From the NCBI GenBank assembly GCA_018822805.1, contig JAHJJU010000001.1, positions 1 to 36,517 of the forward strand: DNA of 36,517 bases, written 5' to 3'. Origin of the DNA: a bacterium. Lineage in GTDB: Bacteria; Campylobacterota; Campylobacteria; Campylobacterales; Sulfurovaceae. Made by a program: the position numbers and the translations under genes. Shown piece by piece: positions 31,788-36,448 of this stretch (position 1 is the first letter of the stretch; each line of letters begins with the position of its first letter). A model generated the notes under the pieces. That model did not search any database, was not told the DNA's origin, and was given only the letters and a program-made list of their open reading frames with translations.

Positions 31788-32957
31788 ATGAGTAATACAA
31801 ATGCAGATGATAAATTAATAGGCTTTGAATATCAATTCTTTTATTTTTTACTGTCACTATTAAAAATGCAAATAGGTGATACTGTTGGGTTTGAAGTCCA
31901 AGAAGATGTTCACATTGAAAATGATGGAAAAATTACTTTTTGCCAATTAAAACATACTATCCAAACTGATTCACAAAATAAACCAAAAAATTTAACAACT
32001 TCAGATAAAGATTTATGGAAAACATTATCTTTATGGGTAAATATTATCAATAAAAAAAGTGATAAAAATGAATTTTTAAAAAACGCAAAATTTATTTTTG
32101 TTTCAAACAAGAGTAATAATGATAATAATGCATTTTTAACTCATTTCACGACTTTTCAAAATGATAAAGAGATAGATAATTTAAAAGATTTTTTAAACTC
32201 ATATAAAAATACACTTGATTCAAAAGACAAAAAGCGTGAGTATCTAAATAATATTTTATCTTTGGATGATGCACTTTTAAAAAATTTCTTTTTAAAAATA
32301 AAATTTTTACTCAATCTGAATGAAATAAGACAAAATATAAAAGATGTGCTTAAAAATGAAAAATACATCAAAAGCGATTTTAGAATTGACCAAGCTTATG
32401 AGCAACTCATAGGGTTGTTAAAAGATGATTTTTTTGAGAAAGTAATAGAAAGAGAGAAAGTACAATATTCAAGAGACGAATTTGCTCAAAAAGTTACTCC
32501 TATCTTTGAAAAAATGAGAAGTGATAAAATTCCTTTTTTTTCAAAGATAGAGCATTCAAAAGAAGTTAAAATATTAGATAGAGTATTTGCAAAACAATTA
32601 AAAGATATTGGAATAGAAGATGATGAAGAGATATATGAATATGATTATAATAGAGTTCTAACAGAGAGCAATTTAAAAGAACTTCATCAATCTAGTGAAA
32701 TAACCAAACAAGATATAGATACTTTAGATGAGAACACATTAAATAATTGGAAGCCTATTTATAGAAAAAAATATATTAGAAAAGTGGAAGACAAAGAAAA
32801 AGCTTTGGAATTTTTTTATGATATACTAGATAAAGATTTATATTTAGCAGGACAAATATTAGATAAAGCTATTTCTAATGGACAATTTATAAAATTATCA
32901 AATATTCCTAAAATTGGTTGGAAATATAATTGGAAGGAGTATGAAAATAATGAATGA
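31788..32957 (+). CDS. probable ABC-3C effector with PD-(D/E)xK-like nuclease domain
   Basis: This 389-residue protein opens with a pattern seen in restriction-like nuclease domains of Cap4/DUF4297 type: GFEYQ (12-16), a strand with FEVQEDVHI (Glu36, Glu39, Asp40), and FCQLKHT (Gln53, Lys55). Together these give the (E/D)...QxK core. The remaining two thirds is charged, mostly helical, and has no motif I recognise; it would be the family-specific C-terminal module that binds the partner proteins. A strong ribosome site (AAAAGGAG) precedes ATG 31788. It is the first of three genes with overlapping ends. In ABC-three-component systems such a protein is the variable effector; nuclease activity here is inference. 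Confidence 0.6.
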   Translation: MSNTNADDKLIGFEYQFFYFLLSLLKMQIGDTVGFEVQEDVHIENDGKITFCQLKHTIQTDSQNKPKNLTTSDKDLWKTLSLWVNIINKKSDKNEFLKNAKFIFVSNKSNNDNNAFLTHFTTFQNDKEIDNLKDFLNSYKNTLDSKDKKREYLNNILSLDDALLKNFFLKIKFLLNLNEIRQNIKDVLKNEKYIKSDFRIDQAYEQLIGLLKDDFFEKVIEREKVQYSRDEFAQKVTPIFEKMRSDKIPFFSKIEHSKEVKILDRVFAKQLKDIGIEDDEEIYEYDYNRVLTESNLKELHQSSEITKQDIDTLDENTLNNWKPIYRKKYIRKVEDKEKALEFFYDILDKDLYLAGQILDKAISNGQFIKLSNIPKIGWKYNWKEYENNE

Positions 32958-33408
32958 CACCTATAATAATATTGGAATTTCACTGGTTTCTTTTTTATCT
33001 GTAGTTCGATTTTTTGATGAAATAGATTATGCAAAAACTTTATTGATTAATCCTATATTACTTCATAATAAATCTACAGCTTATTTTAAAAGTCACATTA
33101 ACAAAGCAAAAGGGATAGAAGGTTTAATTACTTCTAAAATAGAGTTATTTGTAGGCTTCAATAAAAGGTATTATTCATTTTTAGAGATTTCTATAAATAC
33201 AATAATTATTGCTCAAAAGATGAATTTTATAACTTTATATAAAAATAGAATAATACCCAATAAAGATCAGATTGATAAATTTGATTTTACAAACAAAGAG
33301 TTAGGGAATAGGGCAATTAATATTATAGAAGCGTCACAAAGAATAGCAACTGTACTTAAAGAAGAAAATACAAATAATTTATACTTTATGTTTAGGATAG
33401 AGATATGA
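32950..33408 (+). CDS. probable ABC-3C middle component
   Basis: This 152-residue, mostly helical protein (MNDTYNNIGISLVSFLSVVR...) has no catalytic motif. Features such as a hydrophobic N-terminal helix, ILLHNKSTAYF and repeated Ile/Asn-rich segments fit the small middle component of ABC-three-component systems, which links effector and ATPase. The identification rests mainly on size and position between a nuclease-like gene and a DUF3732-type ATPase. ATG 32950 is preferred because AAGGAG (32934-32939) is 10 bp upstream. ATG 32941 would be only 1 bp from it, and TTG 32914 is less likely. It overlaps the upstream gene by 8 bp and the ATPase gene by 4 bp. Confidence 0.55.
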   Translation: MNDTYNNIGISLVSFLSVVRFFDEIDYAKTLLINPILLHNKSTAYFKSHINKAKGIEGLITSKIELFVGFNKRYYSFLEISINTIIIAQKMNFITLYKNRIIPNKDQIDKFDFTNKELGNRAINIIEASQRIATVLKEENTNNLYFMFRIEI

Positions 33409-35243
33409 AATTTTATATAAAGCATATTATATTATGGTTGAAAAATGGTAATAAAAGAACTCTTGACTTTGAAAATAATAAAGTAAATATTATTACGGGT
33501 AAACAATCTACAGGTAAATCAACTATTATAGAAATTATTGATTATTGTTTTTTTTCAAGTCAGAAAAATATGCCTGAAGGTGAGATAATTGATAAAAATG
33601 TAGAATGGTATGGAATTAATTTTGTTATTAACGATAAAGTTTTTACAATAGCAAGACATCAAGAGATAAAATTAAATCAATATTATTTTTCATCTAATGG
33701 TAATATTCCAAAATCACCTTTTATTAATATACCAGAAAAAAATATACAAAATAAAATAGATAAAGAATTTTCAATAGATTCTAATTTTATATTTTCTAAT
33801 AAAGAAAAACAATCTATATCAGCTAGACATTTTATGATATTTAATACACAAAAAAGAGATACTCTCTCTAATAAAAATAATTTATTTGATAATACGTATG
33901 AATCAAAAAATTTTCTTGTCAAGGAATTAAATAAAATATTTTATTTAGCTTTGGGTATTTCTTCTATGGAAAATCTTATTAAAATAGATTTTCATGATGA
34001 AGAACAAATAAAATTAAAAGGTTTAAAAAATAAATTAGATAACTCTAATCGTTCATCATTTAATATGGATGAAAATTTAATAAAGTTTTGTGAAGAAGCT
34101 CAAAAACTTGAAATTATCAATACAATAAATAGTAATGAAGAGTGTCTTTCTCAATTAGAACAACTTATTGAAAGATTAGATAAAATTGATAAAGATGAAG
34201 AAAATTTATTTAAAGAACAATTATCTTTAAAATTAAAAATTAATCAATTTGAAAAATATGAAAGTCAATATCAAAAGTATAAAAATGTCTTAGATAAAGA
34301 TAGTGATAGTTTAAAACCAATTGAATATTTAAAAAAAAAATTCACTGAACTCCTAAATGATGAACTACTTGATAAAGTTATTGATAATTTGGATAATGAA
34401 TTAAAAGCTATTCAAAATCATATTAAACTTCAAGATAGTACGGCAATAAATGAGTTAAACAATAAGATATATTCTTTTAAAAACCAACTAATAAACATAA
34501 ATATTGAAATAGATAAATCAATATCACAATTAAAAATAACTAATTTAACTCAAGCACAATCCTTTTTTTTAGGAAAATTAAAAGAAAAATTCAATGTATA
34601 TACATCTGAAGAAAAAGAAGAACTTCAAAATAATATTGATGAGTTAACGAAATCTATTGAACTTCAACATAAAGATATTGAAGAGTTAGATATTGATGCA
34701 ATAATTTGTATATTAGATTATTTGATGATTGAAATTTTAGAAAAAGAGAACATCAGATTAGAAGGGTATGAAAAATATCAACCTTCTTTTGATTTTAAGA
34801 AAAAAGCAATTGTTTTAAAAGAAGATAAAAAAATAATTAAAAATATTGGAAGCTCATCTAATCATCTTTTTTTACATTTAGTCTTTTTTAATGCAATACA
34901 TAGATTTTTTATACAAAAGAATATTCCATATATCCTACCCTTTGTGATTATAGACCAGATAGATAGTCCTTATTATTCAAGTAAAGATAATAATGAAAAG
35001 GTAGTTTTCTTAAACGCATTAAAAATTTTAGACAATCAAATAACTTATTGTAATAATGAATTAAATGAAGATTTTCAAATTATACTTTTAGAGCATATTG
35101 AATGGGAAGAATTAGAAAAAAGTGGATTTAAAAATTACCATTTGGTTGAGGAATGGCGAGAAGATGGTGATGGCTTAATACCAAAAAAATTAATAGAAGA
35201 TGATATTACAACAAAACGACAACCTAGCTTGTTTAATGAGTAA
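33405..35243 (+). CDS. DUF3732-type ABC ATPase of an ABC-3C system
   Basis: This 612-residue SMC/RecN-like ABC ATPase has Walker A GKQSTGKS (32-39) after an N-terminal strand set. A long coiled-coil middle follows (about 185-440), then the C-terminal half of the ATP site: a signature-like IGSSSNHLFLHL (about 480-491) and Walker B PFVIIDQIDSPY (about 511-522). The end, LVEEWREDGDGLIPKKL, matches the typical closing motif of DUF3732 proteins. This family is described as the ATPase of a class of ABC-three-component conflict systems. ATG 33405 overlaps the previous stop (ATGA). The reading frame is complete and extremely AT-rich, unlike the era and hslU genes around it. Confidence 0.8.
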   Translation: MKFYIKHIILWLKNGNKRTLDFENNKVNIITGKQSTGKSTIIEIIDYCFFSSQKNMPEGEIIDKNVEWYGINFVINDKVFTIARHQEIKLNQYYFSSNGNIPKSPFINIPEKNIQNKIDKEFSIDSNFIFSNKEKQSISARHFMIFNTQKRDTLSNKNNLFDNTYESKNFLVKELNKIFYLALGISSMENLIKIDFHDEEQIKLKGLKNKLDNSNRSSFNMDENLIKFCEEAQKLEIINTINSNEECLSQLEQLIERLDKIDKDEENLFKEQLSLKLKINQFEKYESQYQKYKNVLDKDSDSLKPIEYLKKKFTELLNDELLDKVIDNLDNELKAIQNHIKLQDSTAINELNNKIYSFKNQLININIEIDKSISQLKITNLTQAQSFFLGKLKEKFNVYTSEEKEELQNNIDELTKSIELQHKDIEELDIDAIICILDYLMIEILEKENIRLEGYEKYQPSFDFKKKAIVLKEDKKIIKNIGSSSNHLFLHLVFFNAIHRFFIQKNIPYILPFVIIDQIDSPYYSSKDNNEKVVFLNALKILDNQITYCNNELNEDFQIILLEHIEWEELEKSGFKNYHLVEEWREDGDGLIPKKLIEDDITTKRQPSLFNE

Positions 35244-35313
35244 AAGAAACGAATTTGGAAAGTAAAAATTAAATGATATATACCCATCCCAAAATAAATT
35301 CTCAATAAAAGTG

Positions 35314-35319
35314 TATAAT
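35314..35319 (+). promoter_or_regulatory. -10 box before the structured block
   Basis: TATAAT in the context GTGTATAATATTG. Transcription would begin near 35326, right at the start of the GC-richer structured block. No -35 is evident. Confidence 0.4.
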
Positions 35320-35325
35320 ATTGAA

Positions 35326-35474
35326 TGGAGTTTGGAAAACCGTGGACAGCCGTGTAGGTAGCTTAGAAAACTTCATGGAGTGCATACAGGTAAATGTCCT
35401 ATGTACACCGAATAGGTGAGACTGTGAAAGAACCTATGCATTTTGATACAAGGGTGCAATAAATTGCACCCTTG
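35326..35474 (+). ncRNA. candidate structured RNA of unknown family
   Basis: Hand-folding shows compatible stems. GTGTAGGTAG (35352-35361) pairs with CTATGTACAC (35399-35408) at 9 of 10 positions, including one G-U pair and one G-G mismatch. ATAGGT (35412-35417) pairs with ACCTAT (35432-35437), and the next positions could form tandem G-A pairs. GTTT/AAAC (35330-35340) is a small 5' hairpin. The block ends in a 12-bp stem palindrome (35449-35474). It lacks the conserved SRP GGAA/AGCAG loop, RNase P and tmRNA signatures. It could be a small RNA linked to the ABC-3C cassette, a leader for era, or a relic of a mobile element such as a group II intron. Neither transcription nor fold is shown. Confidence 0.3.
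35449..35474. repeat. 26-bp perfect palindrome (REP-like core)
   Basis: CAAGGGTGCAAT (35449-35460), AA, ATTGCACCCTTG (35463-35474). The core GGTGCAATAAATTGCACC matches, except for one inserted base, the second hairpin of the element after valS (26895-26913). No T-run follows on either strand, so it is better read as a repeat than as a standard terminator. Confidence 0.65.
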
Positions 35475-35516
35475 AGGGAGAATGGGTTGGTGTAGATGAA
35501 GTCTATATTATACTTA

Positions 35517-35525
35517 TGCTATACT
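35517..35525 (+). promoter_or_regulatory. extended -10 box for era
   Basis: TG-C-TATACT lies 32 bp before ATG 35558. It would let era be transcribed on its own although the accessory cassette separates it from hslU. Confidence 0.45.
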
Positions 35526-35557
35526 ACGAAAAATAATTTAAAAGTGACACTATATAT

Positions 35558-36448
35558 ATGGAAATGAAAACGAAATCAGGCTTTATTGCTGTAGTTGGAC
35601 GACCAAACTCAGGGAAGAGTACACTGCTGAACTATCTAGTGGGTGAAAAACTTGCGATGGTTTCTAAAAAAGCTCAAGCAACACGAAAACGAATGAACAT
35701 CATCGTTATGCATGGTGTTGATCAGCTTATTTTTGTGGATACCCCGGGGATTCATAAAAAAGAGCGTCTTATCAATGAGTTTATGCTTGAAGAAGCACTA
35801 AAAGCAATGGGAGATAGTGACTTGATTTTGTTTTTGGCACCTATCACCGATAAACTCGATGAGTATGAGAAGTTTTTAGCTTTAAAAGAGAGTTCAAAAG
35901 CTAAACACATTGTACTTTTAACGAAGATGGATCATGTGCCTCAAGGGAAGATTTTAGAAAAACTTGGGGAGTATCAGAAATATCAAGATCGATTTGAAGC
36001 GATTATCCCTTTTTCTGTTAATAAAAAAGTAGGTAAAAAATCTCTTTTAGATGAGGTGGTTAAACACCTTCCTGAATCACCGGCACTGTTTGATACCGAT
36101 ATTACTACAACAGAGTTTGTTCGTGATATTTATAAAGAGTTAATTAGAGAGTCTATTTTTGAGAATCTCTCTGATGAGATTCCATATGAGTCTGATGTTA
36201 CCATTGAAAAGATTGATGAAGAGGATGAAATGGATCGTGTTTATGCTACTATTGTTGTTGAAAAAGAGACACAAAAAGGGATTATTGTTGGAAACAAAGG
36301 TGAAGGAATTAAGCGTGTAGGAAAATTAGCACGTCAACAACTTGAACTTTTTTCAGGTAAAAGAATTTATTTGGATCTGCATGTTGCCGTTAAGAAAGGT
36401 TGGAGTAAATCCCGTGGTGGACTAGAAGATATGGGCTATGTCTTCTAA
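35558..36448 (+). CDS. era: GTPase Era
   Basis: Era is an essential GTPase that binds the 3' end of 16S rRNA and helps 30S subunit maturation. The 296-residue protein has G1 GRPNSGKS (14-21), G3 DTPGIH, and a G4 motif TKMD where NKxD is usual. The C-terminal KH domain has GIIVGNKGEGIKRVGKLARQ. The length is normal. ATG 35558 and ATG 35564 (two codons later) are both possible, and neither has a clear ribosome site. In relatives era directly follows hslU; here it is 3.86 kb away behind the ABC-3C cassette. Confidence 0.96.
   Translation: MEMKTKSGFIAVVGRPNSGKSTLLNYLVGEKLAMVSKKAQATRKRMNIIVMHGVDQLIFVDTPGIHKKERLINEFMLEEALKAMGDSDLILFLAPITDKLDEYEKFLALKESSKAKHIVLLTKMDHVPQGKILEKLGEYQKYQDRFEAIIPFSVNKKVGKKSLLDEVVKHLPESPALFDTDITTTEFVRDIYKELIRESIFENLSDEIPYESDVTIEKIDEEDEMDRVYATIVVEKETQKGIIVGNKGEGIKRVGKLARQQLELFSGKRIYLDLHVAVKKGWSKSRGGLEDMGYVF

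Follow-up and report, generated by a model that had tools for sequence, protein, structure and literature searches.

A type I-F mini-CRISPR beside a Lamassu operon in a member of the Sulfurovaceae, a probable orphan guide locus of creA/creR build

Results

The DNA analysed here (the window) is a stretch of 36,517 nucleotides from a member of the Sulfurovaceae. Towards its right-hand end it carries a Lamassu operon on the forward strand, consisting of the genes for the effector LmuA (31788-32957; PADLOC LmuA, E=6e-42), for LmuC (32959-33408; Pfam PF20131, ABC-3C middle component 3, E=6e-7; PADLOC LmuC, E=1e-6) and for the DUF3732 ATPase LmuB (33405-35243; PADLOC LmuB, E=7e-69; Pfam DUF3732, E=4e-26). 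An earlier note on this DNA had described these neighbours as ABC-3C genes; the operon (LmuA/LmuC/LmuB) is Lamassu. None of 298 further genomes of the order yielded a homologue of the Lamassu ATPase at an E-value of 1e-20, and searches with exact peptide patterns detected no Lamassu relatives in two contig collections. Three Lamassu homologues on plasmids have no I-F repeat nearby, and the island in the window is not flanked by direct or inverted repeats of at least 10 bp.

The block 35311-35474 lies in the gap that separates the lmuB stop at 35243 from the era start at 35558. In agreement with the earlier note, it contains no reading frame (none of at least 40 amino acids is listed between 35306 and 35557) and has a higher GC content than the genes to its left: 45%, in the block as in the mini-CRISPR within it, against 22% in the Lamassu genes, a roughly twofold difference. 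We found that three unlike things are joined here: a TATAAT box, a mini-CRISPR at 35342-35430 and, from 35418 onwards, sequence of dispersed repeats. The note had overlooked a pair of type I-F CRISPR repeats 60 nt apart, here called psiR1 and psiR2, around a single spacer-like guide, psiS. Judged by comparison with the repeats of real arrays, this psiR1-psiS-psiR2 arrangement is very probably a single-spacer mini-CRISPR of type I-F.

The first repeat, psiR1 (GTGGACAGCCGTGTAGGTAGCTTAGAAA), occupies positions 35342-35369 of the forward strand, 98 nt after the end of lmuB. Repeats of type I-F were recognised by a length of 28 nt, a 5-bp stem with a 5-nt loop, a C6-G20 closing pair, an 8-nt 5' handle of the CTTAGAAA type and a match to repeats of real arrays, and psiR1 has these features, with pair 7-19 broken. 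In a DNA search of 100 relatives, three genomes showed tracts at a spacing of about 60 bp that matched 35346-35370; the locus in the family relative G059 is a CRISPR array with the repeat GTGAACTGCCGTGTAGGTAGCTTAGAAA, to which 35342-35369 is identical at 26 of 28 positions. The alignment score of psiR1 is 48, compared with a background maximum of 22. With up to three mismatches allowed, a search of 399 genomes of the order found the 28-mer nowhere but in the window and the G059 arrays, and this repeat variant was absent from the viral contigs and GTDB contigs searched. A permissive Rfam scan returned a weak match to CRISPR-DR4 (E 1.8) that covers exactly the 28 nt of psiR1, a clue to the CRISPR identity of the block. 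The residues critical for Cas6f, C6 and G20, are kept, and the 8-nt 5' handle (35362-35369) is intact; the change of T to A at position 7 creates an A7.A19 mismatch that breaks the second stem pair and thereby weakens the Cas6f stem. On its own, psiR1 folds at -2.9 kcal/mol, as opposed to -6.4 to -8.8 kcal/mol for array repeats.

The guide psiS (ACTTCATGGAGTGCATACAGGTAAATGTCCTA; 35370-35401, forward strand) measures 32 nt, the usual length of I-F spacers in relatives' arrays, and psiR2 (TGTACACCGAATAGGTGAGACTGTGAAAG; 35402-35430, forward strand) begins exactly one I-F period of 60 nt after psiR1. The best match of psiR2 is the array repeat GTGTACTACCGAATAGGTAGCTTGGAAG on contig C41 of G023, a genome of the same genus; TGTAC and ACCGAATAGGT are identical in the two, and the score of 32 was reached by none of 7248 background windows (background maximum 22). 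Since the G023 repeat was selected from several for its fit, more weight falls on the empirical background than on the label of the matching repeat. Comparisons with the G059 repeat alone (p 0.14) and with psiR1 (p 0.014) are marginal; psiR1 and psiR2 are about 70-72% alike, with gaps, and resemble different I-F repeat families, that of G059 and that of G023, respectively. Within psiR2 the stem-loop CACC-GAATA-GGTG (35406-35418; hairpin z -2.1) is intact, and on one parse both partners of pair 7-19 are missing while the helix is kept. The portion 3' of the stem is lost and not clearly repeat-like. In viral contigs, the psiR2 core was matched by two isolated 16-mers in GC-rich sequence without repeat context.

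The 3' part of psiR2 overlaps the start, at 35418, of a dispersed inverted-repeat (MITE-like) element beginning GAGACTGTGAAAGAAC, whose left end (GAGACTGTGAAAGAACCTATGCATT; 35418-35442, forward strand) has copies in G029 and in the window's own genome. G029 has five copies of this sequence, with the reverse complement forming the other end of the element, and the own genome has one further copy. In G029 (L083, L026, L086-L088) the dispersed element is about 140 bp long and has terminal inverted repeats GAGACTGTGAAAGAAC and nested palindromes. Since the element end falls on the 3' part of psiR2, the loss of that part is perhaps an insertion scar rather than creA-like degeneration; on the sequence, either degeneration or insertion of the element may account for it. 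Further downstream, the perfect palindrome reported before was confirmed at 35449-35474, around AAGGGTGCAATAAATTGCACCCTT and with an 11-bp stem, and turned out to be an intergenic repeat dispersed across the genus, which recurs in relatives and at other sites of the own genome. The 3' third of the block does resemble a mobile element, as the proposal of a mobile-element remnant had it, since the end of an inverted-repeat element is joined there to a dispersed palindrome. The group II intron fragment offered as an example is not supported: there was no Rfam match at gathering threshold, none of the permissive matches was of intron type, and the repeats are those of a CRISPR.

The TATAAT is present at 35314-35319 of the forward strand, as noted before, and lies 22 nt before psiR1 as a candidate -10 box. 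When the upstream region is shuffled, the motif turns up by chance in about 15% of cases; it lacks a good -35 element and is absent from the promoter-like sites of a promoter scan. The folding of the block is likewise less telling than had been supposed, as the predicted transcript 35326-35447, without the palindrome, folds at chance level (z -0.8; 39 of 200 shuffled sequences fold equally well). It is the palindrome (z -6.4), the only exceptional folding of the block, that gives the whole its z of -3.9, and the long stem drawn earlier between 35352-35361 and 35399-35408 pairs at 9 of 10 positions, counting G-U, but is not part of the predicted fold. That no RNA family can be named still stands, with no Rfam family reaching its gathering threshold. 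A cassette-associated small RNA had also been suggested; here the part that survives is the location beside a defence cassette, where the sequence has the apparent anatomy of a crRNA-like guide gene and not that of an unknown structured RNA. An era leader does not agree with the comparison of 27 genus loci, in which only the last ~45 bp of the hslU-era stretch, era's own upstream region (TATGCTATACTACGAAAAA...; ~35515-35557, forward strand), is clearly shared. Across these 27 loci the hslU-era junction varies widely between species: hslU directly adjoins era in several relatives, and in others further genes stand before era.

No cas remnant lies beside the mini-CRISPR, whose flanks are lmuB and era. 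In the own genome, whose assembly is 99.8% complete in 121 contigs, two family searches found neither Csy4/Cas6f (PF09618) nor Csy3/Cas7f (PF09615), and the absence of I-F Cas proteins is judged from these two. The same genome has three Cas1 genes, one beside Cas2 (L090), one beside Cas9 (L092) and one fused to a reverse transcriptase (L091). From a reading of the translations, on which the subtype labels in this genome are based, L090 appears I-B-like; L091 (1-2472 on contig C52) encodes a reverse transcriptase-Cas1 fusion of about 740 amino acids next to a Cas2-like frame; and L092 (contig C1) comprises the C-terminal part of Cas9, Cas1, Cas2 and a repeat tract, a type II system. Within the genus, I-F Cas6f was found in 3 of 34 genomes, with two copies in one. 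In G023, two type I-F Cas6f genes (L079, L082) adjoin arrays with quite different repeats.

In no other genome did we find a homologous copy of the whole element. A family search with its 89 nt led instead to isolated repeat pairs away from arrays, two-repeat mini-CRISPRs at the I-F loci of four family relatives: G269 (L122; contig C6, 11595-11677), G355 (L123; C1, 6727-6802), G032 (L124; C135, 14998-15081) and G099 (L129; C45, 18504-18579). By reading frames and Pfam, those of G269 and G355 lie between cas2/3 and csy1. In all four, the first repeat keeps its handle and the second keeps its stem-loop and loses what follows, the same decay as in the window. Their guides are 20-28 nt long, compared with 32 nt in the window, and each matches a CC-flanked site within ~120 bp at 17-19 of 20 positions, a cis match that none of 1000 shuffled guides equalled (P<0.001). 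These four are apparently creA/creR elements of the family. The last repeats of the relatives' ordinary arrays are nearly intact, so psiR2 of the window is not simply the usual end of an array; by eye, the sequence upstream of psiR1 is also unlike the relatives' array leaders.

Corresponding searches for a target of psiS returned no match above expectation. Within 700 bp there is no CC-flanked target (best 10/20, P=0.69), nor is there one in the Lamassu promoter or in the relatives' I-F cas loci. The own genome contains no exact match to PAM plus 10-nt seed, and its near-matches are no commoner than those of the reversed pattern (9 versus 10). Nothing in the viral contigs, phages and plasmids searched matched psiS; hits in Acinetobacter plasmids were ordinary arrays, and apparent matches in a dnaB intein-like insert (L021) and in glyS (L024) lie in coding sequence and are expected by chance. 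The former gene (162-2636 on contig C50 of G009) encodes a DnaB with an apparent intein, a few hundred extra residues that follow AARPAMGK and end in VTHN before TSLV.

Discussion

Taken together, our analyses suggest that 35342-35430 is an orphan crRNA-like guide locus of creA/creR build that is stranded beside a Lamassu operon and inert in this host, a reading to which we assign a probability of about 0.6. Its promoter, transcription, processing, inertness and history are read from the sequence. In a host with a type I-F system, the mini-CRISPR would be transcribed from the upstream TATAAT, Cas6f would cut after the stem of each repeat, and the product, a crRNA-like RNA with the 5' handle CUUAGAAA, the 32-nt guide and a hairpin as 3' handle, would be loaded into the type I-F Cascade. 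As the I-F Cas proteins were not found in the genome, we think that the mini-CRISPR is stranded and inert here. It could be the trace of an I-F locus that was lost from the lineage or a guide gene that travels with the Lamassu cassette. The full 32-nt spacer, as in ordinary arrays, may equally point to descent from an immune array.

The last possibility leads to the view that the locus is the plain relic of an ordinary I-F array, which lost its leader and other units and whose last repeat was cut by the inserted inverted-repeat element. This history, which we consider possible if somewhat unlikely, overlaps with the orphan reading, of which it is one possible past, and it fits the full-length spacer, the 60-nt period, the element end that starts inside psiR2 and the undetected I-F cas genes in a genome with three other Cas1 loci. 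However, identical repeats that had decayed neutrally would not be expected to resemble different I-F repeat families and both to be altered at pair 7-19, and neither a cas remnant nor a leader is found alongside. An RNA anti-CRISPR, that is, a repeat mimic borne by the cassette and tying up Cas6f/Cas7f of the I-F hosts it enters, is an unlikely alternative on balance. Solitary repeat units of this kind are defined as intergenic repeats that are at least 90% identical to a known repeat and have a promoter within 250 bp and no cas genes (PMC10651486). The intergenic psiR1, outside an array and 26/28 = 93% identical to a known repeat, may carry this signature if the TATAAT 22 nt upstream, a motif that arose by chance in 15% of shuffles, is a promoter. 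In addition, RacrIF1 needs C6 and G20 (PMC10651486), both kept in psiR1, I-F systems exist in the genus, and a non-targeting crRNA also lowered interference (PMC10651486). On the other hand, psiR1 is not solitary, and SRUFinder, which discards repeats with a second repeat >70% alike within 100 bp (PMC10651486), would discard it for the presence of psiR2, at ~70%. The action of RacrIF1 depends on 70-76 nt that precede the cut site (PMC10651486), compared with only ~36 nt from presumed start to cut site here. The weakened stem of psiR1 also speaks against a decoy, as does the lack of a recognised acr, prophage or plasmid gene alongside in a non-systematic look.

A functional regulator like CreA, CreR or the CreA of CrePA, which would guide an I-F Cascade to repress a promoter, possibly that of the Lamassu operon or of a lost toxin, seems distinctly improbable to us. 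The anatomy of two degenerate repeats is shared with the four relatives' elements, whose CC-flanked targets match at 17-19/20, and protein toxins repressed by CreA (CrePA) have been described (PMC12737573); yet psiS has no such target within 700 bp, in the Lamassu promoter or at the relatives' I-F loci, no exact PAM-plus-seed match in its own genome, and no Cascade was found there for it to guide. Still further removed from the data is the view of the earlier note, which has no link to CRISPR and draws on the possible -10 box: a small regulatory RNA, the leader of era or a piece of a group II intron. We regard it as highly improbable in light of two statistically clear I-F repeats, folding at chance level once the palindrome is left out, no Rfam family over threshold and an era region conserved only from ~35515.

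If the orphan guide locus is what it appears to be, it indicates, even as a relic, that guide loci of creA/creR build can persist without their Cas genes, by outlasting them or by moving away. The control loci moreover point to creA/creR-like elements with cis targets at type I-F cas loci of the family. We may also speculate, at rather long odds, that the Lamassu cassette brings along a I-F guide or decoy RNA, which on entry into a host with type I-F CRISPR-Cas captures the Cas6f or Cascade of that host, to blind it or redirect it at a rival element, and which stays silent where I-F is absent. If true, two layers of immunity would be linked by a cassette that combines a crRNA-like guide with a defence system of another kind.

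Among known systems, an ordinary type I-F array shares with the locus the repeat type, the 28-nt repeat, the 32-nt spacer and the 60-nt period, but the mini-CRISPR has neither leader nor cas genes, its repeats are not identical and the second is decayed, and it thus differs from an array of at least two near-identical repeats with a leader. With Racr and solitary repeat units it has in common an intergenic I-F repeat without cas genes, a possible promoter and the conserved C6 and G20, and it departs from them in the second repeat 60 nt downstream of psiR1, borderline at ~70-72% likeness, in its short upstream RNA and in its location, which is on no recognised phage or plasmid. CreA and CreR are crRNA-like guide RNAs of type I CRISPR-Cas systems, known from CreTA of Acinetobacter I-F (PMC10097628) and from haloarchaeal creA (PMC8501985, PMC9458426; reviewed in PMC12737573). 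Compared with these, the mini-CRISPR has a guide of 32 nt instead of 20-28 nt, has no PAM-flanked partial target nearby (10/20, P=0.69), and sits between lmuB and era without linked I-F cas genes, none of which was found in the genome. Like them, it consists of one guide between two degenerate and mutually divergent repeats outside an array, the first of which keeps the 5' handle and the second the stem-loop. Despite the absence of two defining features, the cis target and the linked cas genes, it is by its sequence anatomy closest to creA/creR.
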